39,039 bases of DNA from contig DASVDQ010000124.1 of NCBI GenBank assembly GCA_036381035.1, positions 1 to 39,039 on the forward strand, in the 5' to 3' direction. Both the position numbers and the translations under genes were made by a program. The notes beneath the pieces are model-generated. The model was given only the letters and a program-made list of their open reading frames with translations. It did not search any database and was not told the origin of the DNA. Positions 1,334-17,526 of the stretch are shown in pieces. The DNA comes from Trueperaceae bacterium. Lineage in GTDB: Bacteria; Deinococcota; Deinococci; Deinococcales; Trueperaceae. Numbering within the stretch: position 1 is the stretch's first letter; each line of letters starts with the position of its first letter.

Positions 1334-2347
1334 GTGCCGCGCCTCCGCCACGGGACCGGGGCGGGCGCGCCGGACGCGCCGCGCTTCACCGAGCGGCACG
1401 TGCGCGTGCTGCACGCCGTGGCCGAGAGCTACATCCGCACCGCGCACCCGGTCCCCTCGCAGCACGTGGCGTCCCAGCTGGACGTCTCCAGCGCGACCGT
1501 CCGCAACGACTTCGGCGCCCTCGAGGAGGGCGGCCTGCTGCAGCAGCCTCATACCTCGGCCGGGCGCATACCCACGGCGGAGGGCTTCCGCTACTACGCC
1601 GCCTCCTACCTGCCGCCGCGGCGCCTGCCCCGGGGCGAGCGCGAGGTCATCAGGCGCGAGCTGGGCGGCGTGGGCGGCGACGAGCTCTTCGTCCAGGCGT
1701 CGCGCCTTGCCGCGCGCCTCTCCGGCTACGCCGTGCTCGTCAGGCTGCCCCCCGACGACGCCCTCCGCGTCCACGAGGTGCACCTCTCGCTGGTCTCGAC
1801 CCGGCGCCTCCTGGCCGTGGTCGTGCTCGAGAACGGCCTCGTGCGCCAGCTCGGCGTGGGCCTCGACCCCATGCCGTACGAGGGCGTCATAGACGAGGCC
1901 GAGCGCAACCTGCGGCAGCTCGACCTGAGCGTGGGCGACGCCCCGCGGACCCTCCGGGCCGTGGCCGCGACCGCGGACGAGGACCTGGCCCGCACGCTAC
2001 GGGCCGTCGCCGACGCCTGGGTGGGCCTGCGCTCGGCGAAGCTGTTCCGCGCCGGGCTCGGGCGGCTCCTGGACGAGCCGGAGGGCGAGGACCCCAGCTT
2101 CGTGCGGCTGGTCGTGGAGCACGTCGAGGGCGAGGCCGCGCTGCCCGAGGCGCCGGAGGGGGACATCGAGCTCGACCTCGACGACCGTCTGGCGCTGGTC
2201 AGCGCCTCGTTCTCCTTCGGCGCCGGCCGGGGCGCCCTCACCCTGGTCGGCCCGGCGCGCATGCGCTACCCCCACGCGCTCTCGATCGCCAGGGAGTTCG
2301 GCCGCGCCCTCACCGCGAGCTCGGGCCAGGACGCCGCCGCGGGCTGA
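1334..2347 (+). CDS. hrcA: Heat-inducible transcription repressor HrcA
   Basis: 337 residues, about normal for HrcA. A winged-helix domain (about residues 15-80) carries ESYIRTAHPVPSQHVA, SSATVRNDFGALEEGGLL and QPHTSAGRIPTAEGFRYY, a diagnostic HrcA signature. The rest matches the HrcA GAF-like and dimerisation region. HrcA represses chaperone genes (groESL, dnaK) by binding the CIRCE inverted repeat and depends on GroEL for activity. No chaperone gene and no CIRCE-like TTAGCACTC repeat was found near the gene, so its targets lie elsewhere. The GTG start at 1334 lies 5 bases after the EVE stop and gives an N-terminal extension of about 15 residues before the first helix; a start a few codons later cannot be excluded. 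Confidence 0.93.
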   Translation: MPRLRHGTGAGAPDAPRFTERHVRVLHAVAESYIRTAHPVPSQHVASQLDVSSATVRNDFGALEEGGLLQQPHTSAGRIPTAEGFRYYAASYLPPRRLPRGEREVIRRELGGVGGDELFVQASRLAARLSGYAVLVRLPPDDALRVHEVHLSLVSTRRLLAVVVLENGLVRQLGVGLDPMPYEGVIDEAERNLRQLDLSVGDAPRTLRAVAATADEDLARTLRAVADAWVGLRSAKLFRAGLGRLLDEPEGEDPSFVRLVVEHVEGEAALPEAPEGDIELDLDDRLALVSASFSFGAGRGALTLVGPARMRYPHALSIAREFGRALTASSGQDAAAG

Positions 2348-2466: not shown

Positions 2467-3378
2467 GTGCCTAACGAGGTGTACCGCGCCGCCGTGGACG
2501 GCCTCGCCGGCCTCGTCCCGCCGCGCGTCGCCCAGCGCCTCGTCGACGAGGCGCTGAAGGCGACGCGCCGCACGCCGGAGGACGTGAGCCTCTCGGCGAT
2601 GCGGCGCCTCCTCCTGGGGCCGATCCGCGCCGAGCTGGACGGCGTCCTGCCGCCCGGCGCGGCCGGCCCTGGGCTCAAGCGCCTCGCCGCCTCGCTCGCC
2701 CACCACGACGACCAGCCGCGACGGCGCTGGTGGCAGCTGCGCCGCCGCACTGCCCAGATCGGCGGCGAGGCGAGCGACGCCGAGGCCGCTCGCGACCCGG
2801 GCCACGACCCCGACACAGCGACGCCGCCCGTCCCCGCCCTGGGCGCCGCCGCCAAGGCGGCGGCCGTCGCCGGACCGTCGCCGAACGTCCGCGCCACGCT
2901 GGTGCGCCGCGTCGACCCGGCCGAGGCCGCCGCGATCGAGCGGGCCGTGGCGGCGGAGCGGTCGGGCGCCGCGGGCGGCGGCGTGGCCGTCGCCGCTGAC
3001 GCTCGGCCGGACGCCCCGTCGCGCCGACGGGCGCCCCGTGCCGCCCCCCTGCCCGCGCTCGACGACGCGCTCGTCGACAAGGCGCTGCGCGCCTTCGGCG
3101 CCCTCGAGACCGTGCGCCAGGTGGTGGCCGTGAGGGGCGCCGAGGTCGTACTGGGGAGCGGCGAGGGCGTCGACGAGGCCGCGCTGCCGGGGCTGGCCCT
3201 GGCGACGTCGCGGCTCCTCGGCCGCGACGGCACCCTCAAGCTGTTCGCCCTGGAGCGCCCCTCCGGCGCCCTGTTCCTGTTCCCGCTGCGCGGCGGCGGG
3301 CTCGTGGTACTGACCAAGCCCAAGGTGAACGTCGGCGCGGTGCTGGCCGCCCGCGCCGCCCTCGAGGAGGCAGCATGA
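2467..3378 (+). CDS. Uncharacterised protein: shared N-terminal helical module plus Roadblock/LC7-like C-terminus
   Basis: 303 residues with no signal peptide or membrane segment. Residues 1-62 align without gaps to the start of the 914-aa protein at 5479 (21 identities by eye), including N-x-VY, AV, PRV, R-x-P-E-x-V and L-x-G. A variable Ala/Arg/Pro-rich linker follows (about 85-200). Residues about 205-303 have the beta-alpha-beta rhythm of a Roadblock/LC7 fold: FGALETVRQVVAVRGAEVVL, an alpha-helical stretch, then strands LKLFALE and LFLFPLRGGGLVVL. Roadblock proteins usually form dimers and bind small GTPases (as MglB with MglA) or act as scaffolds. The stop overlaps the next gene's ATG by 4 bases, so production is probably coupled. 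I do not recognise the family; the fold call is by eye and moderate. Confidence 0.6.
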   Translation: MPNEVYRAAVDGLAGLVPPRVAQRLVDEALKATRRTPEDVSLSAMRRLLLGPIRAELDGVLPPGAAGPGLKRLAASLAHHDDQPRRRWWQLRRRTAQIGGEASDAEAARDPGHDPDTATPPVPALGAAAKAAAVAGPSPNVRATLVRRVDPAEAAAIERAVAAERSGAAGGGVAVAADARPDAPSRRRAPRAAPLPALDDALVDKALRAFGALETVRQVVAVRGAEVVLGSGEGVDEAALPGLALATSRLLGRDGTLKLFALERPSGALFLFPLRGGGLVVLTKPKVNVGAVLAARAALEEAA

Positions 3379-5414
3379 TCGCTCGTCTGAGACCCATAGC
3401 CGTCGTGGCAGCGCTGTTCGTGCTGGTCGGCGCTCCGGCACTGGCCCAGGAGGACAGCGTCCTGCAGCGCTACGACCTGGCCGTGGAGAACCTCGAGTTC
3501 GCGATCGCCTCCGTGCCCGGCGACCCCGTGCAGGCGCGCGACGAGCTCGAGCGCGCCGTCAACGCGCTGCTCACGCTCTCGCGCGACACCACGAGCGCCA
3601 CGCTCCTCGAGGCGATGCAGCGCACGTTCGACCGCGCCAGGACCGCCGTGGACAACGAGAGCCGCGCCGACCTCGCCGTGCAGGCGGCGGTGCTGCGCGG
3701 CGGCTTCCGCCGCCTGGTGGCCGACTCGGCCTTCACCGCCGGCGCCGCTGGAGAGCTCGACACGGCCCTGTCTCGCCTCACCCACGTGGCCGAGGAGCTG
3801 GGCTTCGCCGCCGACGACCTAGAGACGCTGGCGGGCGCCGGCACCTCGCTGGCAGCGCTGCGGCTGGCCTTCGAGGCCGGGGCCGCCGCGGCGATCGCGG
3901 CCGAGCTCACGGTGAGCGAGCGCCTGCTGCCCACCGACAGGGAGGCGGCCTACGAGGCGCTGGCGACGGCCTACGGGGACTCGCTGCTGGTGCAGGACTC
4001 CCCGCGCGCCGACCCCGACCTCCACGCGGCGCTCCTGCGCGCCGCCCAGGCGCTGGTCCAGAACGACGCCGAGGCCTTCGCTGACGCCACCGACGAGGCC
4101 GAGGGCCACCTCACGCGCCTGGCGTCGGCCGCACGCGCCGGCGAGGCCGGCGGGCTGGCCGCGCCGGCCGCGCCGCCGGAGGGCGCCGCACCGGACGCCG
4201 CCGGCGCCGCCCCCGGGGCCGGCGAGGCCCCCGCGCCCGCCGCGCAGGATGAGGCCCCCGCCGCGCCGCCCGCGGAGGGCGCTCCCGCGCCCGCCGACCA
4301 GCAGGCCGACCAGGCGGCGCCCCAGGGCGGTCAGCCGGACGCGGCCGAGCCGCCGTCCGACGAGGCGGCCGCGCCGCCCGCAGCGCCGGCCGCCGCAGGG
4401 CCCGAGGGCCAGCCGGGCGCGGGCGAGGCCGCCGGACGACCCGGCGAGGGGCTCGGCGAGCTGCCGTCGCTCGGCGGCGAGCCTGCCGCCGAGGGCGCCG
4501 CGCCCGTGGACCTCGCCCTGCTCAGGGCGCAGTTCGAGCAGGAGCGTCGCGACGCCGAGCTGGCCGCTCTCGTCCAGGAGCTCGAGGGCGCGGGCCTGCC
4601 GGCCGGCCTGGCGAGGTCGCAGGCCTCGGCGCTGCTGGACGCGGGCTTCACGTCCACGGACGCGGCGTTCGACGCCGTCGCCGCGCGCCTGGGCGAGGCC
4701 GTGGCCGACCTGCGCGCGGGCGACGCCGCCGGCGCCGCGAGCGCCGTGGGGACGGCCAGGATGGCCTTCGAGAACGTGCGCGGCCTCGTGGGCGCCAGGG
4801 ACTCCGCCGCCGCGGCCGACGCGGCCGCCCTCTTCGACAGCGTCCTCGACCGCCCCGCGATGCGCGAGCACGACCTGACGCTGCTCGCCGCCTCGGTCGA
4901 GGCGGGCCGCGCGGCGCTGCTCGGCGAGCCGGCCGCCGGCGCCGGCCTGTCCCTGGAGCGGAGCGTCGACGCGGTCTGGGGCGGTTGGACGCGCCTGGCC
5001 GTGCTGTTCGTGCTCGGCGTCCTCGCCTTCGTGCCGCTGCGCTACCTGAACCTGGCGTTCGGCGGCGGCAACGCGAACTGGCGGCTCGTCGCCTGGGCGC
5101 TGTTCCTCCTGCTGGTGCCGGTCTTCTACGAGGCCCTAGCGGCCCTCGGCACCGCCGTCGCGCGGCTCACGGAGACCCCCTCCCTCGACGTCCTGGCGCG
5201 CTGGTCGATGTTCGACAGCACGCTGGGGCACGTCGTATGGGCCGCGCTGGTCTTCCTCGCCCTGCTCTTCGCCGCGATCGGCCTGCGCGGCATCTGCGCC
5301 CAGTTCGGCGTGCTCGGCGCGCGCGGCGGCCCCCAGGCGTCCACGACGCCGACGCTCGTCGAGTCGAGCGGGGTGCGGCAGCAGACGGCGGTAGACTGGG
5401 ACGACGAGTTCTGA
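3375..5414 (+). CDS. Uncharacterised envelope protein: signal peptide, long extracytoplasmic helical region, three membrane segments, acidic tail
   Basis: 679 residues. The N-terminus is a signal peptide with likely cleavage after PALA (residue 24). Residues 25-255 are predicted helical and rich in Ala, Asp, Glu and Arg. Residues about 256-379 are a low-complexity Ala/Pro/Gly/Glu linker. A second helical region (380-530) follows, then three hydrophobic segments at about 540-560, 570-590 and 620-640. With a cleaved signal peptide this puts the first ~510 residues outside the membrane and the last ~40 inside, ending VDWDDEF. That tail is a plausible docking peptide for the cytoplasmic Roadblock proteins on either side. 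The ATG overlaps the upstream stop (ATGA). No family was recognised; the topology is read from the sequence and the partnership is inferred. Confidence 0.65.
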   Translation: MIARLRPIAVVAALFVLVGAPALAQEDSVLQRYDLAVENLEFAIASVPGDPVQARDELERAVNALLTLSRDTTSATLLEAMQRTFDRARTAVDNESRADLAVQAAVLRGGFRRLVADSAFTAGAAGELDTALSRLTHVAEELGFAADDLETLAGAGTSLAALRLAFEAGAAAAIAAELTVSERLLPTDREAAYEALATAYGDSLLVQDSPRADPDLHAALLRAAQALVQNDAEAFADATDEAEGHLTRLASAARAGEAGGLAAPAAPPEGAAPDAAGAAPGAGEAPAPAAQDEAPAAPPAEGAPAPADQQADQAAPQGGQPDAAEPPSDEAAAPPAAPAAAGPEGQPGAGEAAGRPGEGLGELPSLGGEPAAEGAAPVDLALLRAQFEQERRDAELAALVQELEGAGLPAGLARSQASALLDAGFTSTDAAFDAVAARLGEAVADLRAGDAAGAASAVGTARMAFENVRGLVGARDSAAAADAAALFDSVLDRPAMREHDLTLLAASVEAGRAALLGEPAAGAGLSLERSVDAVWGGWTRLAVLFVLGVLAFVPLRYLNLAFGGGNANWRLVAWALFLLLVPVFYEALAALGTAVARLTETPSLDVLARWSMFDSTLGHVVWAALVFLALLFAAIGLRGICAQFGVLGARGGPQASTTPTLVESSGVRQQTAVDWDDEF

Positions 5415-5478
5415 AGCCCCCGGCCGTCGCGCCCGGCGCCGCCAGCACCCCTGGCCGGGCTGAATCACCGGAGCCCTG

Positions 5479-8223
5479 ATGACCAACCTCGTCTACCAGA
5501 CGGCGGTCGAGGAGCTGGAGGCGGTGATGTCGCCGCGCGTCGTCTCCCGCTCGCTCAAGGAGGGCCTGCGCCAGCACGGGCGCTCCCCCGAGACCGTCGA
5601 CGTCGCGACGCTCGAGGAGATCCTCAAGGGCCAGGTCTACCGCCAGCTCCAGGTCACGATGCCCGTGACCGAGGCGAAGGCCACGGTGGCCAACATCCTC
5701 GAGCGCCTGCGTGAGGTAGGCGACGACAAGGCCCCGGCGCCTCGCAGCGGCCTCGAGGCCCAGGCCGAGCGCCTCCAGAACCTGCAGCAGGCGCTCAAGC
5801 CGTACAACCTCTACTTCGAGTGGCCAGAGGTCCAGAAGCTGCGGGCGCAGCTCCAGCTCCTCGAGGCCGAGCACGAGGCCGGGCGCGAGGCCGGCACGCT
5901 CCTCGCCGACGCCGAGGCCCAGCTCGAGGCCGTGTCGCAGAAGCTCGAGGACCAGCTCGTGCTGCAGGCGCGCGAGGTCGGCGAGCTCTCCGAGGCCCTG
6001 GAGGCCGTCCGCTCGCTGGGCGGACCGAAGGTGAGGCGGCTGGAGTCCCTCGTCAACCACATGCGCTCGGCGCAGGAGGCCAGGCACCTCGCCCCCGCGG
6101 AGCTCGAGCGGGCCAGGAGGCTCGCCCGCGACCTCCGCAAGCTCATGGAGTCGAGCGTCTACTCCGAGGCACAGGAGGGGGACGCCGAGGGCCAGACCGC
6201 GCCGGCCGAAGCGGAGGCCGACGAGGGCGGGGTCTTCGACGTCGGCACCGAGGACGAGGAGATCCTGACCATCGACGTCGGCAACCTCACGCCGGAGGCG
6301 AGCGAGCGCCTGCGACTGATCGACCTGGCCGCCGAGTCGGAGGACCTCGCCGCCCTGCGCGACGAGCACGGCGTGCTGCTCGACTACCGGCCCGACCTCG
6401 CCGCGCGGTTCGAGGCCCTGGCGGCCGACCTGGCGGCGGGACGGACCGTCGCCGACGAGCTCGCGGAGCTGCGCGAGGCGCTGCCCGCGGCCGCCGACGA
6501 GGTGCGGGCCTCCCTCCGCGCCGAGTTCGAGGAGCTCGGCCGCGAGGTCGAGGAGCTGCCGGAGGTCATCGACGCCGCCGAGCTCCGTCAGGCGGCGAAG
6601 GTCACCCTGGGCATACTGGCCACGACGCTCCCGGCCGCCGCCGACGTCGATCACGTCAGGCAGCTCCGCGAGCTGGCCCGCGAGCAGGTCGAGGTCCAGC
6701 GACGCGCCGAGGAGGCGCTCGAGGCGCAGTTCAAGGCGCAGGAGGAGCTGGTGCGGCGCCTCGAGGAGACCCTCGTGCGCTACGAGGCCCACAGCCCCTC
6801 GGAGGACGTGCGGCGCCTGCGGGAGGAGCTCGAGTCCCTGCGCCTGGCCCACGCCAGCCGCACGCTCGTGCCCGAGGTGATGGCCTCGGTGAGGCAGGCC
6901 GAGGAGCGCCTGGCCCGCGAGCTGGCCGAGCGCGCCACCGAGGAGTCCGAGCGCCGCCGGGCGCGCATCGAGAGCCTGCGGGCCCAGCTCCTGGCGGTGC
7001 CCCCCACCGCCACGCTCGGGGACCGGGTCGAGGCCGCGCTGCGCGAGGTGGACAGGCTGCTCGAGGAGCAGGCCGGCAGCGAGGCGGCCAGCGCCCTGCT
7101 GCTCGACGAGGAGCTGGGGCCCACGCTGCCGCTGGACGCCGAGCACGCCGACCTCGGCGCGCTGGAGGCCCTGATCTCGTCGCTGCGCAGCGAGGCGATC
7201 GTCAGCGTCAGGAAGCGGCTCGAGCGCCTGGCCGAAAGGGCCGGCGAGATCGGCAGCGTCTCCTTCGCGGAGCGCATCCAGGCGGCTATGACCGACCTCG
7301 AGGGCGGCGTGTTCCCCGACCTGGCCGGCCTCGAGGTCGAGCTGGGCCGGGCCAGCGAGGCCGCGCGCACGCACCAGCTCGGCGAGCTCCACAGGCTGGG
7401 CCGCGAGGCCCAGACCTACGCCGGGCTCGACGACCCGCAGGTGCGCGAGCTGTTCGAGCTGCTCGCGTCCGAGCGCCAGCAGCTCGCCGCGGGCGGGCAC
7501 GCCCGGCGCCTCGGCGAGGCCGCGCTGCTCCTGGGCCGCGTCGAGGCGCGCGTCGAGGAGCGCCTGTCGAGCGTGCCCGCGCGGCTCGACGACGCGCTGG
7601 CGCGCTTCGAGGTCGTCGCCAAGCTGAACAGCGACGACGTCGCCACCGTGCGGCGCATCCTCCAGCACCTCGACTCGCAGCGCGACTCCCTGAACCGCGT
7701 CTCGGTGGGCCTGCGCCTGCAGCTCGAGTCGTCCTTGTCGCAGGCCGAGCAGCTCCTGTCCAGCCTCGAGGAGGAGTACGAGGCCACGCGCCTCATCGCC
7801 GACCAGCTCGTCGCCGGGGGGCTGCTCGACGACGTGCTCGGCCCCCTGGCCGGGGCGGGCGGCGGGGCGGCCGAGCCGGCGCGGACCGGTCAGCCTCCCG
7901 CCGAGCTGGCCGAGCGCTACGCCGACACGCCCGGCGTCGCGTCAGTGAGCGTGCTCTCCCCCGCCGGCGAGCTCCTCGCCGGCGCACCGCTCCACGGCGC
8001 GGACGGTCGGCGGGCCCTGGGCGACCTGAGGCGGTCCGCGGCGGCGCTGCTGGCGCGCGAGGCGGAGCGGGAGGGCGACGTGCTCGTCGTGACGGCCGGG
8101 CTGTCGGAGGGGCACCTAGTCGTGGCGTTCGCGCCGGGCCTCACCGTGACGCTGAGGGTCGACTCGGCGGCCCTGGCCCCCGTGGTCTCCGGCCGGCTGC
8201 GCCGCGACCTGGCCGGCGACTGA
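5479..8223 (+). CDS. Uncharacterised giant coiled-coil protein with shared N-terminal module and Roadblock/LC7-like C-terminus
   Basis: 914 residues, cytoplasmic by appearance. Residues 1-62 match the module at the start of the 2467 protein (VYQTAVEELEAVMSPRVV, then HGRSPETV). Residues about 85-800 are almost wholly Glu/Arg/Leu/Ala-rich helix with heptad character, broken near 225-275 by an acidic insert (DVGTEDEEILTIDVGNLTPE). Residues about 807-914 look like a Roadblock/LC7 domain: YADTPGVASVSVLSPAGELL, a central helix, then strands DVLVVTAGL, HLVVAFAPGLTVTLRV and a final helix. A GGAG 5 bases before the ATG is a good ribosome binding site. tsaE begins 8 bases after the stop. The architecture suggests an elongated scaffold that dimerises at one end. 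No known family was recognised. Confidence 0.65.
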   Translation: MTNLVYQTAVEELEAVMSPRVVSRSLKEGLRQHGRSPETVDVATLEEILKGQVYRQLQVTMPVTEAKATVANILERLREVGDDKAPAPRSGLEAQAERLQNLQQALKPYNLYFEWPEVQKLRAQLQLLEAEHEAGREAGTLLADAEAQLEAVSQKLEDQLVLQAREVGELSEALEAVRSLGGPKVRRLESLVNHMRSAQEARHLAPAELERARRLARDLRKLMESSVYSEAQEGDAEGQTAPAEAEADEGGVFDVGTEDEEILTIDVGNLTPEASERLRLIDLAAESEDLAALRDEHGVLLDYRPDLAARFEALAADLAAGRTVADELAELREALPAAADEVRASLRAEFEELGREVEELPEVIDAAELRQAAKVTLGILATTLPAAADVDHVRQLRELAREQVEVQRRAEEALEAQFKAQEELVRRLEETLVRYEAHSPSEDVRRLREELESLRLAHASRTLVPEVMASVRQAEERLARELAERATEESERRRARIESLRAQLLAVPPTATLGDRVEAALREVDRLLEEQAGSEAASALLLDEELGPTLPLDAEHADLGALEALISSLRSEAIVSVRKRLERLAERAGEIGSVSFAERIQAAMTDLEGGVFPDLAGLEVELGRASEAARTHQLGELHRLGREAQTYAGLDDPQVRELFELLASERQQLAAGGHARRLGEAALLLGRVEARVEERLSSVPARLDDALARFEVVAKLNSDDVATVRRILQHLDSQRDSLNRVSVGLRLQLESSLSQAEQLLSSLEEEYEATRLIADQLVAGGLLDDVLGPLAGAGGGAAEPARTGQPPAELAERYADTPGVASVSVLSPAGELLAGAPLHGADGRRALGDLRRSAAALLAREAEREGDVLVVTAGLSEGHLVVAFAPGLTVTLRVDSAALAPVVSGRLRRDLAGD

Positions 8224-12179: not shown

Positions 12180-13228
12180 GCGAGGCCGGGCCGCTCACGC
12201 TCACGCAGCTGGCGGACGCCATCGGGGGTCGCCTCGAGGGCGCGCCGGCCGACGTCGGGGTGAGCCGCCTCGCCTCGCCCGCCTCCGTGGCGGCGGGGCG
12301 CGACGACGCCGAGGCGTGCGTGGTCGTCGCCGGCACCGAGGCCGACGTGGCGGCGCTGGCCACCGCGCCCCGGCCGCCGGCGCTGGTCGTGGCGCCGGAA
12401 GGCCTCGACGCGGGGGCCCTGGCGGGCGTGCCCGTGGCGCGCGTCGCCGACGCCCGCCTGGCGCTGGCCGCGCTCTCGGGACTTCTCGACGACCGCCCGG
12501 ACCCGGCCACCGGGGAGCGCAGCGAGCGCGCCTTCGTCCACCCCACCGCGTCCCTCGGCGAGGGCGTGACCCTGCTGCCCGGCGCCGTCGTGCTGGCGGG
12601 CGCCCGGGTCGGCGACCGCAGCGTACTGGGGCCAGGCAGCGTGGTGGGCGAGGGCAGCGTCGTCGGCGCCGACTGCGTCCTGCACGCGAACGTCACGCTC
12701 TACGACGGCGTGAGGCTCGGCGACCGCGTGGTGCTGCACGCCGGCGTGGTCGTGGGCGCCGACGGCTTCGGCTACGCCGCGTCGCCGGGCGGCGCCGTGA
12801 AGGTGCGCCACCTGGGCGGCGTCGTGATCGGCGACGACGTCGAGGTCGGTGCGAACACGGCCATCGACAGGGGCACCATCGACGACACGGTCGTGGGCGC
12901 CGGCACGAAGATCGACAACCACTGCCAGGTCGGGCACAACGTGCGCATCGGCCGGCACTGCCTCATCGCGGGCATGACCGGCATCGCCGGCAGCGTCGTG
13001 GTCGGCGACGGCGCTGTCCTCGGCGGGGCCGTGGCCGTGGCTGACCACGTGAGCATAGGCGCGGGCGCCCGCATCGCCGGCCGCAGCGGCGTGACGAAGG
13101 ACGTGCCCCCCGGCGAGACGTGGGCGGGCTTCCCCGCCAGGCCGTACCGCCAGTTCGCCAGGCGGCTCTACCTGCTCGACCGCCTCGAGGACGTCTGGCG
13201 CGCCGTCAGGCGCCTGGAGGGCCGCTGA
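12176..13228 (+). CDS. lpxD: UDP-3-O-acylglucosamine N-acyltransferase LpxD
   Basis: 350 residues, usual length. An N-terminal uridine-binding domain (about 1-110) precedes a left-handed parallel beta helix with hexapeptide repeats (about 115-310). The stretch [10 protein letters not shown], then [26 protein letters not shown] and GFPARPYRQ near the end are standard LpxD signatures; the His in VGHNV is the catalytic base position. LpxD adds the second acyl chain to UDP-3-O-acylglucosamine in lipid A synthesis. The GTG start overlaps the stop of the S55 peptidase gene (GTGA). lpxC begins 1 base after the stop. Confidence 0.95.
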
Positions 13229-13229
13229 G

Positions 13230-14036
13230 GTGGCCGCGGCGGTAACCGGCGTCGGGCTGCACAGCGGCGAGACCTGTCGCGCCTACCTCCACCGCGACGA
13301 CGGCCCGCTGCGCTTCCGGCGCGGGCGCGCCGAGGTGGTCGCCCGCGTGACGAACGTCGCCGCCACGGACAGGGCGGTCACGCTGGCCGCCGACGGCGCC
13401 CGCGTGTCGCTGGTCGAGCACCTGCTGGCCGCCCTGCGGCTGCGCGGGTTCTACACCGGCGTCGTCGTCGAGACCAGCGCCGAGGAGCTGCCGATACTCG
13501 ACGGCTCGGCGGCGCCGTGGCTCGAGGCCGTCGCGGCGCTCGGCGAGCCGCCGGAAGCGCCTCCGCCCCTCGTCCCCGCGGCGCCCGTGGAGGTCGCGCT
13601 CGGCGCCTCCCTGGCCAGGGTGGAGCCGGGCGACGAGCGCCTCGACGTCTCCATCGAGTTCGCGCACCCGGCGATCGGCGCGCAACGCTGGTCGGGCGGT
13701 CCTAAGGACTACGCCGAGCTGGCGAGCGCCCGCACCTTCGGGTTCCTCGGCGAGGCGGAGTCCCTCAGGGCCAGAGGGCTCGTTCGGGGCGCGTCTCTGG
13801 AGCATGCTATCGTCTTCGCTGATGACGGGCCGCTGCGCCCACTTCGGTTCCCCGACGAGCCGGTGCGCCACAAGGCGCTCGACGCTATCGGCGACCTGGC
13901 CCTCCTCGGCCGACCCCTCCAGGCTCACGTCACACTGCAGCGCGGCTCCCACAGGCTCCACCACGCCCTCATGTCCCTACTGCTGAGCGCGAGCGAGCTC
14001 CCGGAGCGGGACCGCGAACGGCCGGTGCGACCGTGA
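13230..14036 (+). CDS. lpxC: UDP-3-O-acyl-N-acetylglucosamine deacetylase LpxC
   Basis: 268 residues, about 35 shorter than the E. coli enzyme, losing a little at each end. Zinc ligands and catalytic residues are all present: E63 and H64 in SLVEHLLAAL, H214 and D218 in VRHKALDAIGD with K215, and a later His in RGSHRLHHAL. GVGLHSG, ELPILDGSAAPWLEA and SARTFGFL are also typical. LpxC is the zinc-dependent committed step of lipid A synthesis. GTG at 13230 starts 1 base after lpxD; the next gene overlaps by 4 bases. The intact active site argues for a functional enzyme rather than a relic. Confidence 0.93.
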   Translation: MAAAVTGVGLHSGETCRAYLHRDDGPLRFRRGRAEVVARVTNVAATDRAVTLAADGARVSLVEHLLAALRLRGFYTGVVVETSAEELPILDGSAAPWLEAVAALGEPPEAPPPLVPAAPVEVALGASLARVEPGDERLDVSIEFAHPAIGAQRWSGGPKDYAELASARTFGFLGEAESLRARGLVRGASLEHAIVFADDGPLRPLRFPDEPVRHKALDAIGDLALLGRPLQAHVTLQRGSHRLHHALMSLLLSASELPERDRERPVRP

Positions 14037-14995
14037 GCGTGCGCGTCGCGGTCATCGGCTACGGCGTGATGGGCCGCTACCACGCCATGAACTACCGGTC
14101 GCTGCCGGGCGTGCGGCTCGTCGCCGTCGTCGACCCCGACCCGGACAAGCGCCTGGCGGCCCAGCTCGAACTCGGCGTCGAGGCCTACCCCTCGGTGACG
14201 GCGCTGCTGGAGGCGCGCGCCGTGGACGCGGCCAGCGTCGCGGCGCCGACGAGCCTCCACTACTCGCTGGCCAAGCAGCTACTCCTCGCCCGCGTGCACG
14301 TCCTGGTCGAGAAGCCGGTGGCCACCGACGTCGACCAGGCTCGCGAGCTGGCCGAGCTCTCCAGAGGGCTCGGCCTCGTCCTTCAGGTCGGCCACATCAC
14401 GCGCTTCTACCGCTCCGTGGCGAAGCTCGGCGAGGAGGTGGACCGGCCCTACCTCATCGAGGCGAGGCGCCTGGTGCCCTCCACGCGCGTCAAGGACGTG
14501 GGCGTGATCCTCGACCTCATGATCCACGACATCGACATCGTGCTCGGCCTCGTCCACGGCGAGCCGGTCAAGGTCTCGGCCGTGGGGCGCTGCCTCAACG
14601 GCAGCCCACACGAGGACGTCGCCGCCGCGCAGGTCCTGTTCGCCGACGGCTGCATCGCCAGGCTGCTGGCCAGCCGCGTCGCCCCCGACGCGGAGCGCAG
14701 CCTGCTCGTGGCCGAGCGCGACCGCACGGTGCGGGTCGACTTCGCCAAGGAGCCCTACGCCGAGGTCGTCGTCTACCGCGACCCGGGCGGGGGCACCAGC
14801 GCCGGCCACGTGCAGCTCGACAGGCACGTGATCCACGAGGAGAACCCGCTTAAGAAGGAGCTCGAGCACTTCCTGGCGCGCCAGGCCGGCCAGGCCGCGC
14901 CCATCGGCACCCTGGCGGACGACCTGCGCTCCCTGGCCCTGGCGTCGCGCCTGCTGGCCGAGACGCGCGAGGCGCGCGGCGTCGTGGCCGTCTAG
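14033..14995 (+). CDS. Gfo/Idh/MocA-family NAD-dependent oxidoreductase in the lpx cluster (GnnA-like?)
   Basis: 320 residues with an N-terminal Rossmann fold (VAVIGYGVMGRYHAMNY) and the family's EKP motif in VHVLVEKPVATDVDQA. The C-terminal domain has GHITRFYRS, EARRLVPSTRVKDVGVILDL and MIHDIDIVLGL, typical of oxidoreductases that sit beside lpxA in several Gram-negative groups. One such enzyme, GnnA, oxidises the 3-hydroxyl of UDP-GlcNAc so that the aminotransferase GnnB can make UDP-GlcNAc3N. No GnnB partner lies next to it here, so GnnA activity is only a possibility. The GTG overlaps the lpxC stop (GTGA). Family firm, substrate inferred. Confidence 0.85.
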   Translation: MSVRVAVIGYGVMGRYHAMNYRSLPGVRLVAVVDPDPDKRLAAQLELGVEAYPSVTALLEARAVDAASVAAPTSLHYSLAKQLLLARVHVLVEKPVATDVDQARELAELSRGLGLVLQVGHITRFYRSVAKLGEEVDRPYLIEARRLVPSTRVKDVGVILDLMIHDIDIVLGLVHGEPVKVSAVGRCLNGSPHEDVAAAQVLFADGCIARLLASRVAPDAERSLLVAERDRTVRVDFAKEPYAEVVVYRDPGGGTSAGHVQLDRHVIHEENPLKKELEHFLARQAGQAAPIGTLADDLRSLALASRLLAETREARGVVAV

Positions 14996-15005
14996 GACGC
15001 TGCGC

Positions 15006-15011
15006 TAGACT
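15006..15011 (+). promoter_or_regulatory. -10 box for fabZ, leaderless arrangement
   Basis: TAGACT ends 7 bases before the fabZ ATG at 15019, inside the 23-base gap after the oxidoreductase gene. No Shine-Dalgarno is present. This would be an internal promoter splitting the lpx cluster into two transcription units. Confidence 0.5.
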
Positions 15012-15018
15012 TGCCGCC

Positions 15019-15438
15019 ATGGACCTGGACGTCCGGGCGGTCCTGCCCCACCGCTACCCCTTCCTCTTCGTCGACAGGCTCGTCTCCCTCGAGGGCGACG
15101 ACTTCGAGTGCGTCAAGAACGTCACCCACGACGAGCCGTTCTTCGCGGGGCACTTCCCCCAGGAGCCGGTGATGCCGGGCGTGCTGATCGTCGAGGCGCT
15201 GGCGCAGGCGGCCGGCGTCGCGCTGGCGGCGCGCGAGGGCGGCGCGCCCGCGGGCATCGGCTACCTGGCCGGCATCGAGGGCGCGCGCTTCCGCCGCAAG
15301 GTCGTGCCCGGCGACGTCCTGCGGCTCACCGGCCGCATCGTCGCGTTCCGGCGCGGGCTGTGCAAGGTCGAGGCCAAGGCCCTGGTCGGCGAGGAGGTCG
15401 CCGCCGAGGCCTCGCTGTCGTTCCTCTACTCCTCCTGA
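15019..15438 (+). CDS. fabZ: 3-hydroxyacyl-ACP dehydratase FabZ
   Basis: 139 residues, normal for FabZ. It starts MDLDVRAVLPHRYPFLFVDR and has the active-site His in FFAGHFPQEPVMPGVLIVEA, with the catalytic Glu in the following helix (VEALAQAAG). FabZ dehydrates 3-hydroxyacyl-ACP in fatty acid elongation and so competes with LpxA for the same acyl-ACP, which is why the two genes are commonly paired. lpxA starts 1 base after the stop. Confidence 0.96.
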   Translation: MDLDVRAVLPHRYPFLFVDRLVSLEGDDFECVKNVTHDEPFFAGHFPQEPVMPGVLIVEALAQAAGVALAAREGGAPAGIGYLAGIEGARFRRKVVPGDVLRLTGRIVAFRRGLCKVEAKALVGEEVAAEASLSFLYSS

Positions 15439-15439
15439 G

Positions 15440-16321
15440 ATGAGCGCGGCCGTGCCAGGGTCAGCAGGCGGCGCGCCGGCCGAGCCGGGCGCGCCGCCCC
15501 GCGTCGCCCGCACCGCCGTCGTCGAGGACCCCTCATCGCTCGCCCCCGGCGTGACGGTGGCGGCCGGCGCCTACGTGGCGGCCGGCGCCGCGCTGGGCGC
15601 GGGCGTGACCGTGGGGCCCGGCGTCGTGGTCGAGGGCGGGGTGCGGGTGGGGGCCGGCACGCGGCTGCTCGCCGGCACGGTCCTCCACAGCGGCGTGGAG
15701 GTCGGCGCGCGCTGCGCCGTCGGGCCATACGCCGTGCTGGGCGGCGAGCCCATGGACACGGCCTTCCGCGGCGAGGAGAGCCGCGTCCTCATCGAGGACG
15801 ACGTGACGATCCGCGAGTTCGTCACCGTGCACCGCGCCACCGGCGAGGGCGAGGTCACGCGCGTGGGCGCCGGCACGCTGCTCATGAGCTACGTCCACGT
15901 CTCGCACAACACCGTCGTGGGCCGGCGCTGCGTCCTCACCACCTGCGTGCAGCTCGGCGGCCACTCCGTCGTCGGCGACAGGGCGAACCTGGGGTCGAAC
16001 AGCCTCCTCCACCAGTTCTGCCGCGTCGGCGCCTACGCGATGTTCGGGGCGGCCAGCGCCGCGAACCAGGACGTCCTGCCGTTCGCGATGGCGCGCGGCA
16101 ACCCGGCCAGGCACTACCGCCTCAACACCGTGGGCCTGCGGCGGGCCGGCTTCGACGGCGAGCGCTACCGCCACCTCGAGGACGCGCTGCGGGCCCTGCG
16201 CCGCCGCGACACGGCCGCGCTCGAGGAGCTCGCCACCGTGAGCCGGGACGCGGCCGAGCTCCTGGAGTTCGTGCGCACCAGCCGGCGCGGCGTCCTGAAG
16301 TTCGTGACGGGGGGAAGATGA
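15440..16321 (+). CDS. lpxA: UDP-N-acetylglucosamine acyltransferase LpxA
   Basis: 293 residues, about 30 longer than E. coli LpxA because of an Ala/Pro/Gly-rich N-terminal extension (about residues 1-30). A hexapeptide beta helix follows. Diagnostic elements are TIREFVTVHRATGEG, LLMSYVHVSHNTVVG, whose second His is at the catalytic position, the HQFCRVGAYAMFG segment and GNPARHYRLN. The C-terminal helical domain is complete. LpxA transfers 3-hydroxyacyl from ACP to UDP-GlcNAc, or to UDP-GlcNAc3N where GnnA/GnnB operate. The stop overlaps the next gene's ATG by 4 bases. Confidence 0.95.
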   Translation: MSAAVPGSAGGAPAEPGAPPRVARTAVVEDPSSLAPGVTVAAGAYVAAGAALGAGVTVGPGVVVEGGVRVGAGTRLLAGTVLHSGVEVGARCAVGPYAVLGGEPMDTAFRGEESRVLIEDDVTIREFVTVHRATGEGEVTRVGAGTLLMSYVHVSHNTVVGRRCVLTTCVQLGGHSVVGDRANLGSNSLLHQFCRVGAYAMFGAASAANQDVLPFAMARGNPARHYRLNTVGLRRAGFDGERYRHLEDALRALRRRDTAALEELATVSRDAAELLEFVRTSRRGVLKFVTGGR

Positions 16322-17526
16322 GCCAGGTCGTGCTCGTCAGCAACGGCCCGGGCGAGCTCTACACCTGGGTCGCCCCCGTGGTCAGGGAGCTCAGGCGCGC
16401 CCTGCCGGACGCGCGCGTCTCCGTGGCGCTGGTGCCGTGCCAGTTCGCGGCCGGCAACGAGCCAGAGGTCGCGGCGTCGTTCGGGCCCGACCACGTGTCG
16501 CGCCCCGCCGAGTACCTGCGGGCGCTGGCCGCCGGCACGGTGCCGGCCGGCCTGGCCGACGCGGGCGCCGGACCGGGGGCCGTCGTCGGCCTCGGGGGCA
16601 GCGCCGCCGCGCCGGTCGCGCTGGGACGCAGGCTGCGCTTCCCGGCGTTCCGCTACAGCTTCGAGCCGTACTGGCACCGCGGGCTCGAGCTCCTGCTCCT
16701 GCCCGACGAGAAGGTGCGCGACAGGGCGCTGCGGCGCGGCTCGCCGGGCTCGGCGCTGCGCGTCGTCGGCAACCTCGTCGCCGACGCGGTCGAGGCGGCG
16801 GAGCCGCCGGCGGAGAGAGGCGACCCGCACGTGCTCGTCTTCGCCGGCAGCCGCGACCAGTTCGCACTGCACCTGATCCCGTTCATGATCGCGCTGGTCG
16901 ACAGGCTCGCGCGCGAGCTGCCGCGCGCGCGGTTCGTGTGGCCGGTGAGCCGCATGCTGCGCCCGAGGACGCTCGAGGCGGGCATCGCCGGCGAGGCGGC
17001 GGCGACGCTCGCGGGCGCGGCCGGGCGCCGCGAGGGCGACGTCGTGTACACGCCCGGCGGCGGGCGCATCGAGCTGGTGCCCGAGGAGCAGCGCTACGCG
17101 CACATGCGCGCCGCCGACCTGGCCGTGACGATCCCCGGCACGAACACGCTCGAGCTGGGCGTGGCGGGCGTGCCGGCCCTGGTGCTGCTGCCGCTGAACA
17201 GGCCCGAGCTCATCCCGCTCGAGGGCGCGGGCCACTGGCTGGGCCTCGTGCCGCTGGTGGGCCGCTACCTGAAGCGCTACGCGGTGAGGCTCTTCGTCGA
17301 GCGCCTGGCCGTGCCGGTGTCGCTGCCCAACCGCATCACCGGCGAGGACCTGATGGTCGAGGTCTCCGGCCGGGTCCACCCCGACGCCGTCGCCGAGCGC
17401 GCCCTCGCCCTCGTCGCCGACGAGGACGACCTGGCGCGGCGCCGCCGGCGCCTGCGCGAGACGATGCCGCGCCCCGGCGCCGCCGCCGCGCTGGTGGACG
17501 TCGTCGCGTCCCACGCCGGCCTATGA
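16318..17526 (+). CDS. LpxB-like lipid-A-disaccharide synthase-related glycosyltransferase
   Basis: 402 residues with the GT-B layout of LpxB: N-terminal VLVSNGPGELYTWVAPVVRE and C-terminal VTIPGTNTLELGVAGVPALV. Several features are closer, as I remember them, to the LpxB-related proteins of cyanobacteria than to E. coli LpxB, among them SRDQFALHLIPFMIALVDR and VSLPNRITGEDLMVEV near the end. The position directly after lpxA and before an exporter supports a role in joining two sugar units, but this subgroup's reaction has not been settled to my knowledge. ATGA overlaps at both ends couple it to lpxA and the ABC exporter. I leave the symbol empty for this reason. Confidence 0.82.
   Translation: MSQVVLVSNGPGELYTWVAPVVRELRRALPDARVSVALVPCQFAAGNEPEVAASFGPDHVSRPAEYLRALAAGTVPAGLADAGAGPGAVVGLGGSAAAPVALGRRLRFPAFRYSFEPYWHRGLELLLLPDEKVRDRALRRGSPGSALRVVGNLVADAVEAAEPPAERGDPHVLVFAGSRDQFALHLIPFMIALVDRLARELPRARFVWPVSRMLRPRTLEAGIAGEAAATLAGAAGRREGDVVYTPGGGRIELVPEEQRYAHMRAADLAVTIPGTNTLELGVAGVPALVLLPLNRPELIPLEGAGHWLGLVPLVGRYLKRYAVRLFVERLAVPVSLPNRITGEDLMVEVSGRVHPDAVAERALALVADEDDLARRRRRLRETMPRPGAAAALVDVVASHAGL

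Follow-up and report, generated by a model that had tools for sequence, protein, structure and literature searches.

Roadblock proteins regulate or anchor small GTPases in organisms ranging from bacteria to humans, and in the Ragulator complex (LAMTOR1-5) a dedicated anchor, p18/LAMTOR1, holds pairs of Roadblock proteins at the membrane, and these pairs recruit small GTPases. For bacteria, few cases are known of what tethers a Roadblock protein to its place on the membrane. The actinobacterial conservons (CvnA kinase, CvnB Roadblock protein, CvnC and CvnD GTPase) encode a membrane protein together with a Roadblock protein in a single operon, which is thought to feed a small GTPase (PMC4316618). 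Thermus mutants in MglA/MglB make pili which are mislocalised at one pole (review PMC12024867); furthermore, Thermus is devoid of Pil-Chp and of chemoreceptors, and the way in which its pilus polarity is established is described as unclear (PMC12393216). Here, a set of three genes (A, B and C, the triad) is analysed from a Trueperaceae bacterium (GCA_036381035.1, contig DASVDQ010000124.1; source genome labelled G000), in a stretch of 39,039 nucleotides referred to as the window. We interpret the triad, with about even confidence, as a membrane-tethered Roadblock scaffold of Deinococcota, in which the tail of B would dock A and C and which would serve as an anchor for MglA-dependent polarity.

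A preliminary description of this DNA had reported three consecutive genes, the first two overlapping by 4 bases, with two soluble proteins that have a common N-terminal module and end in Roadblock-like domains on either side of an envelope protein. The open reading frames (Table 1) and the overlap (ATGA) are confirmed, as is the anatomy given for B, i.e. signal peptide, long ectodomain, Ala/Pro linker, three hydrophobic segments and acidic tail; the gap between B and C is 64 bases. None of the three proteins has a convincing family match in Pfam or NCBIfam, where no model describes them as families, and these libraries detect no kinase or GTPase domain in A, B or C. A search of the three against an anti-phage defence library also gave no match.

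The Roadblock ends of A and C are supported by profiles and, for A, by AlphaFold2 (AF2) modelling, rather than by single sequences. In the AF2 model of A (mean predicted local distance difference test score, pLDDT, of 80.5; the alignments used were modest, with 51 sequences for A and 49 for B), residues 199-303 run as helix, two strands, helix, three strands and helix (helices 200-211, 237-254 and 289-302; strands 216-223, 226-232, 260-264, 267-275 and 277-283), which is the full Roadblock element order. This domain aligns with 7yh1 over 105 residues (Z 14.1, root-mean-square deviation 2.3), its top Foldseek matches are to Ragulator (E 4.8e-6) and its nearest structures are Asgard Roadblocks, MglB, conservon proteins and Ragulator subunits; furthermore, the sequence profile of A finds Roadblock chains in the PDB (E 7e-4). 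For C, the evidence comes from profiles: its C-terminal profile matches that of A in hhalign at 95% (E 2.9e-8), where unrelated profiles reach about 1% or less, and MglB is matched at 85% by the last 115 residues of C (E 7e-6) and at 81% by the Roadblock profile of A. Unrelated folds at the two C-termini, which would have spoken against the preliminary description, are at odds with this match. As single sequences, the C-termini of A and C are not alignable, scoring within the shuffle range, and give no Pfam Roadblock match either. A of the window does not match PF03259 even at E 1 and does not reach the Pfam cut-off, and matches below 0.1 occur in 6 of 51 A orthologues (best 4.6e-4). Robl_LC7 is detected in 2 of 25 C orthologues (best E 0.0046), and a match also lies inside the C gene of genome G109 (E 3.2e-4). 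Judged by its predicted fold, A is a divergent branch of the Roadblock/LC7 superfamily, and by profile comparison the C-terminus of C is a homologue, degenerate, of the Roadblock domain.

The N-module provides a second tie between A and C. Their first 62 residues align without gaps and with 21 identities, as had been counted by eye in the preliminary description (BLASTP E 5e-9); none of 1000 shuffles matched the alignment score (z 17), and the orthologue profiles of the two modules match over 79 columns with an hhalign probability of 99.1% (E 4.9e-19), as against 0.9% for a reversed-profile control. AF2 models the module of A as a compact helical domain. It has no match in the libraries searched, its fold not having been searched separately from that of the Roadblock domain.

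Protein B is modelled by AF2 with a mean pLDDT of 82.5, the signal peptide being followed by a helical ectodomain (residues 28-258), a disordered Ala/Pro linker, a second helical region (380-515), three transmembrane (TM) helices and the tail. The hydropathy peaks lie at residues 533-563, 570-596 and 612-648, and this well-conserved membrane region carries the motifs FGGxNxxW and GxxGIxxQFG. By positive-inside counts, positive charges lie in the TM1-TM2 loop and after TM3; these charges, together with the signal peptide and the three membrane segments, predict a cytoplasmic tail. As to the “trans-envelope” character proposed earlier, B is predicted to reach the periplasm, but nothing indicates contact with the outer membrane. 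Several candidate identities for B were tried and dropped, namely Activator-TraM (E 0.0085; present in 1 of 49 members), GltG/GltJ (single-member matches, best E 3.6e-6, probably owing to the Pro-rich linker) and, for the N-terminal bundle, the four-helix bundles of TorS, PilJ and BRIL fusions (VIA-align Z about 10-11, chance level for helical bundles). Foldseek with the predicted structure of B returned no match at E <= 0.001.

The tail is the feature of B that most suggests a partner. W[DE][DE][DE] stands at the C-terminus, or within 2 residues of it, in 59 of 59 B orthologues inspected, usually as EWDEEF, and single invariant membrane-region residues aside this end is the most conserved stretch of the protein (mean entropy 0.6 bits over seven residues). 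It follows a spacer after TM3 which is 26-65 residues long and unconserved (mean entropy 2.5 bits). Docking peptides typically show this arrangement, with conservation at the very end of a tether that itself varies. Of 16 triad-carrying genomes scanned, 15 have the exact WxxxF-stop DNA pattern once, at the end of B, and in the remaining one (G016) B ends in WDEEL; with a true stop the pattern is absent from all four triad-lacking genomes scanned. The terminal peptide of B is a putative docking peptide, and the earlier idea that the soluble pair would meet this tail gains support, since the end is conserved, follows a variable spacer and is specific to B, binding itself being inferred.

The distribution of the triad was assessed in 111 Deinococcota genomes, in which orthologues of A, B and C are found in 100, 99 and 103, respectively. 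The joint conservation of the three genes across the phylum, which had been set as a check, is thus borne out. Named loci come from Trueperaceae, Thermus, Meiothermus, Calidithermus and other Thermaceae and Deinococcales (60 loci, with no Deinococcus record among them), and one pattern-based scan found no relatives outside Deinococcota. Wherever the contig permits, A and B are adjacent and mostly overlapping, while A-B-C are contiguous in Trueperaceae, Calidithermus and several other families. Thermus and Meiothermus have retained C, with its N-module and overall layout, at a site unlinked to A-B. There, C of Thermus lies directly before relA/spoT and behind a membrane-protein reading frame (locus L225, 4220-8639), and Calidithermus has the order A-B-C-relA/spoT (locus L140). 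As relA/spoT adjoins C in both, the separation looks secondary, A-B having moved away later. In Thermus parvatiensis RL and Thermus sp. 2.9, B is split over two overlapping frames (locus L123, 8739-10408; locus L143, 8718-10798), as if frameshifted or misassembled; it is intact in related Thermus.

The genomes which lack the triad are informative about the possible GTPase partner. A, B and C are all missing from six Trueperaceae genomes (G002, G003, G005, G018, G024 and G110), and MglA (searched with the protein of G000 as the query) is absent from the same six and elsewhere only from incomplete genomes. When the 85 best assemblies are considered, MglA is missing from five, and these coincide exactly with the five that have none of A, B and C. 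Further, MglB-type Robl_LC7 proteins are missing or sub-threshold in the six. On an MreB tree these genomes fall in two clades, one of which has an intact sister (G109), which makes about two independent co-losses. The source genome itself has a canonical mglB-mglA pair on another contig (C14; locus L145, 737-1824), unlinked to the triad.

The same genomes bear on the suggestion, made in the preliminary description, that the triad serves MreB-dependent cell shape. The mreB start does lie 1.2 kb 3' of C, as reported there, and hrcA-A-B-C-tsaE-tsaB-mreB is the common order in Trueperaceae. However, all six triad-lacking genomes retain mreB at full score (above the TIGR00904 cut-off), and no mreB was seen near the triad in the loci inspected from Thermaceae (Thermus, Meiothermus and Calidithermus among them) and elsewhere. 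As the intervening tsaE and tsaB are tRNA-modification genes, the gene order resembles a housekeeping neighbourhood. A role in shape is thus very improbable, and the link to MglA is the better supported of the two. SLH proteins are likewise kept in all six genomes and PilT in three (G005, G018 and G110). As mreB, SLH proteins and some PilT survive the loss of the triad, the co-occurrence is tighter for MglA than for pili or shape; a structural role in the pilus was set aside because the co-loss of PilT is only partial.

The triad can be compared with several described systems. MglB (1J3W and 3T1R from Thermus thermophilus, 6HJM from Myxococcus) shares the fold of A over 104-105 residues (Z 10.7-12.7), whereas A and C have an extra N-module, C has a long coiled coil as well, and both proteins of the window lie below the Pfam Robl_LC7 cut-off and are not encoded with mglA; by context, A and C are not MglB. 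Conservons are likewise operons of a membrane protein and a Roadblock protein, but no kinase domain is found in B, the triad contains no GTPase or CvnC gene, and it has two Roadblock proteins with a common N-module. A conservon-like logic without the kinase would make B a sensor of envelope signals and let the Roadblock domains of A and C regulate another GTPase or an ATPase. The conservon protein CvnB5 (3leq) is indeed among the Foldseek and profile neighbours of A, and the N-terminal bundle of B has a weak likeness to the TorS and PilJ sensor domains (Z about 10-11, below meaningful level). Nevertheless, this alternative is unlikely, since no GTPase or kinase gene is present in the triad or conserved beside it (the flanks in the window being hrcA, tsaE, tsaB and mreB), and MglA, the GTPase tested for presence, tracks the triad.

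Ragulator may serve as a works-like analogy for an anchor with a Roadblock pair. It differs in that no sequence kinship of the anchors is seen, B being polytopic and exported, with a periplasmic domain and a short acidic-aromatic tail peptide. The functional place proposed for the triad, from MglA to a membrane machine, is that of the Myxococcus MglA partners SgmX, RomR/RomX, MglC and GltJ; the Roadblock fold of MglC (7ct3) aligns with A at Z 10.2, but no homology to these partners was found for B, C or the N-module. The anchor B and the WDEEF tail also have no match in the libraries searched.

In the proposed mechanism, B would be an exported protein held in the inner membrane, whose helical ectodomain, sensor- or adaptor-like, lies in the periplasm. 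Its flexible cytoplasmic tail, ending in [VI][DE]WDEEF, would dock A and C, most simply via the N-module common to both, and the Roadblock domains of A and C would thereby be brought together as a hetero- or homodimer, with the long coiled coil of C acting as a spacer or oligomeriser. The Roadblock surface may then recruit or regulate the Ras-like GTPase MglA, beside its separate GTPase-activating protein MglB, and a membrane site such as the cell pole would thereby be marked.

Several points weigh against this mechanism. The co-loss rests on about two events, so that other functions lost in those lineages could explain it and coincidence is possible; genome G012 has neither A nor B but retains MglA along with a divergent C; and neither mglA nor mglB lies near A, B or C in the loci inspected. 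The Roadblock end of C is degenerate, and it is shorter in Thermus, while Meiothermus gives a clear match. Roadblock domains can, moreover, act purely as dimerisation modules without a GTPase partner, and such scaffolds are known in dynein and Ragulator. The triad could accordingly be a membrane scaffold independent of MglA, in which the Roadblock domains only dimerise and which organises some other envelope machine, for example the type IV pilus platform or the link between peptidoglycan and outer membrane. The distance of the triad genes from mglA and the large periplasmic domain of B are in keeping with such a role; yet A, B and C were lost together with MglA in both losing lineages, and the persistence of PilT, SLH proteins and mreB without the triad means that it is not obligatory in those machines. 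An MglA-independent scaffold is hence a possible explanation, albeit a doubtful one. Regarding genus g13, to which G012 belongs, the MreB of G012 has diverged strongly and falls below the family cut-off (44% identity), and in G021 A and B are only weak; the genus may be partway through losing the set.

Table 1. Coordinates of the triad, its domains and the upstream gene in the window
Feature	Position	Strand	Description
hrcA	1334-2347		Upstream of A
Gene A	2467..3378	+	GTG start, 303 residues; N-module, disordered linker, C-terminal Roadblock domain
N-module of A	2467..2709	+	About residues 1-81, helical; AF2 pLDDT 93-98 over residues 1-80
Roadblock/LC7 domain of A	3061..3375	+	Residues 199-303; AF2, Foldseek, structural alignment, profile match
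Gene B	3375..5414	+	679 residues; signal peptide, helical ectodomain, Ala/Pro linker, second helical region, three predicted membrane helices, predicted cytoplasmic tail
Membrane region of B	4971..5318	+	Residues 533-648; invariant columns in two orthologue alignments (A1, A4)
Tail motif of B, VDWDDEF	5391..5411	+	Residues 673-679; proposed docking peptide
Gene C	5479..8223	+	914 residues; N-module, conserved FNLYFEWPEVQKLRAQ region, long helical/coiled-coil middle, degenerate Roadblock domain
N-module of C	5479..5718	+	Residues 1-80; BLASTP and hhalign against A
Best conserved region of C	5787..6165	+	Residues 103-229; invariant L-Y, W, E and R columns (alignment A5)
Roadblock-like domain of C	7876..8220	+	About residues 800-914; hhalign profiles

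Residues 109-120 of C (window 5803-5838) form its best conserved stretch, YNLYFEWPEVQK (consensus FNLYFEWPEVQK), which resembles the B tail [VI]EWDEEF in its hydrophobic-acidic-W-x-E pattern. It is pure speculation that this stretch is an internal copy of the docking peptide which competes with B.

Apart from the triad, the window carries a lipid A gene cluster (12197-16318) comprising lpxD, lpxC, a UDP-GlcNAc 3-dehydrogenase-like gene, fabZ and lpxA. The product of lpxD exceeds the cut-off of TIGR01853 (298 bits), that of lpxC is just under the cut-off of TIGR00325 (168 bits), and fabZ and lpxA are over theirs. A glycosyltransferase-like reading frame (16318-17526) follows lpxA at the position expected for lpxB, with no NCBIfam match at 1e-10. 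Deinococcota are usually said to lack lipopolysaccharide, and putative lipid A synthesis in Trueperaceae would be of interest in view of this.

Across the phylum, the triad occurs as a single-copy set that combines an evident membrane anchor with two Roadblock partners and a docking-like tail that hardly varies; it is not described by Pfam or NCBIfam and is present in the genetically tractable Thermus. It thus offers a concrete candidate for the placement of MglA and polar pili in Deinococcota, which has been called unresolved (PMC12393216, PMC12024867). Tentatively, and with considerably more doubt than confidence, it may represent a new type of signalling module in bacteria, in which the C-terminal WDEEF peptide of a polytopic envelope receptor would be read by the N-module, itself undescribed so far, which would recruit a Roadblock pair to the membrane, thereby positioning or gating MglA. 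If true, such a module would, in Thermus, connect the envelope or surface with pilus polarity, a link that has been missing.

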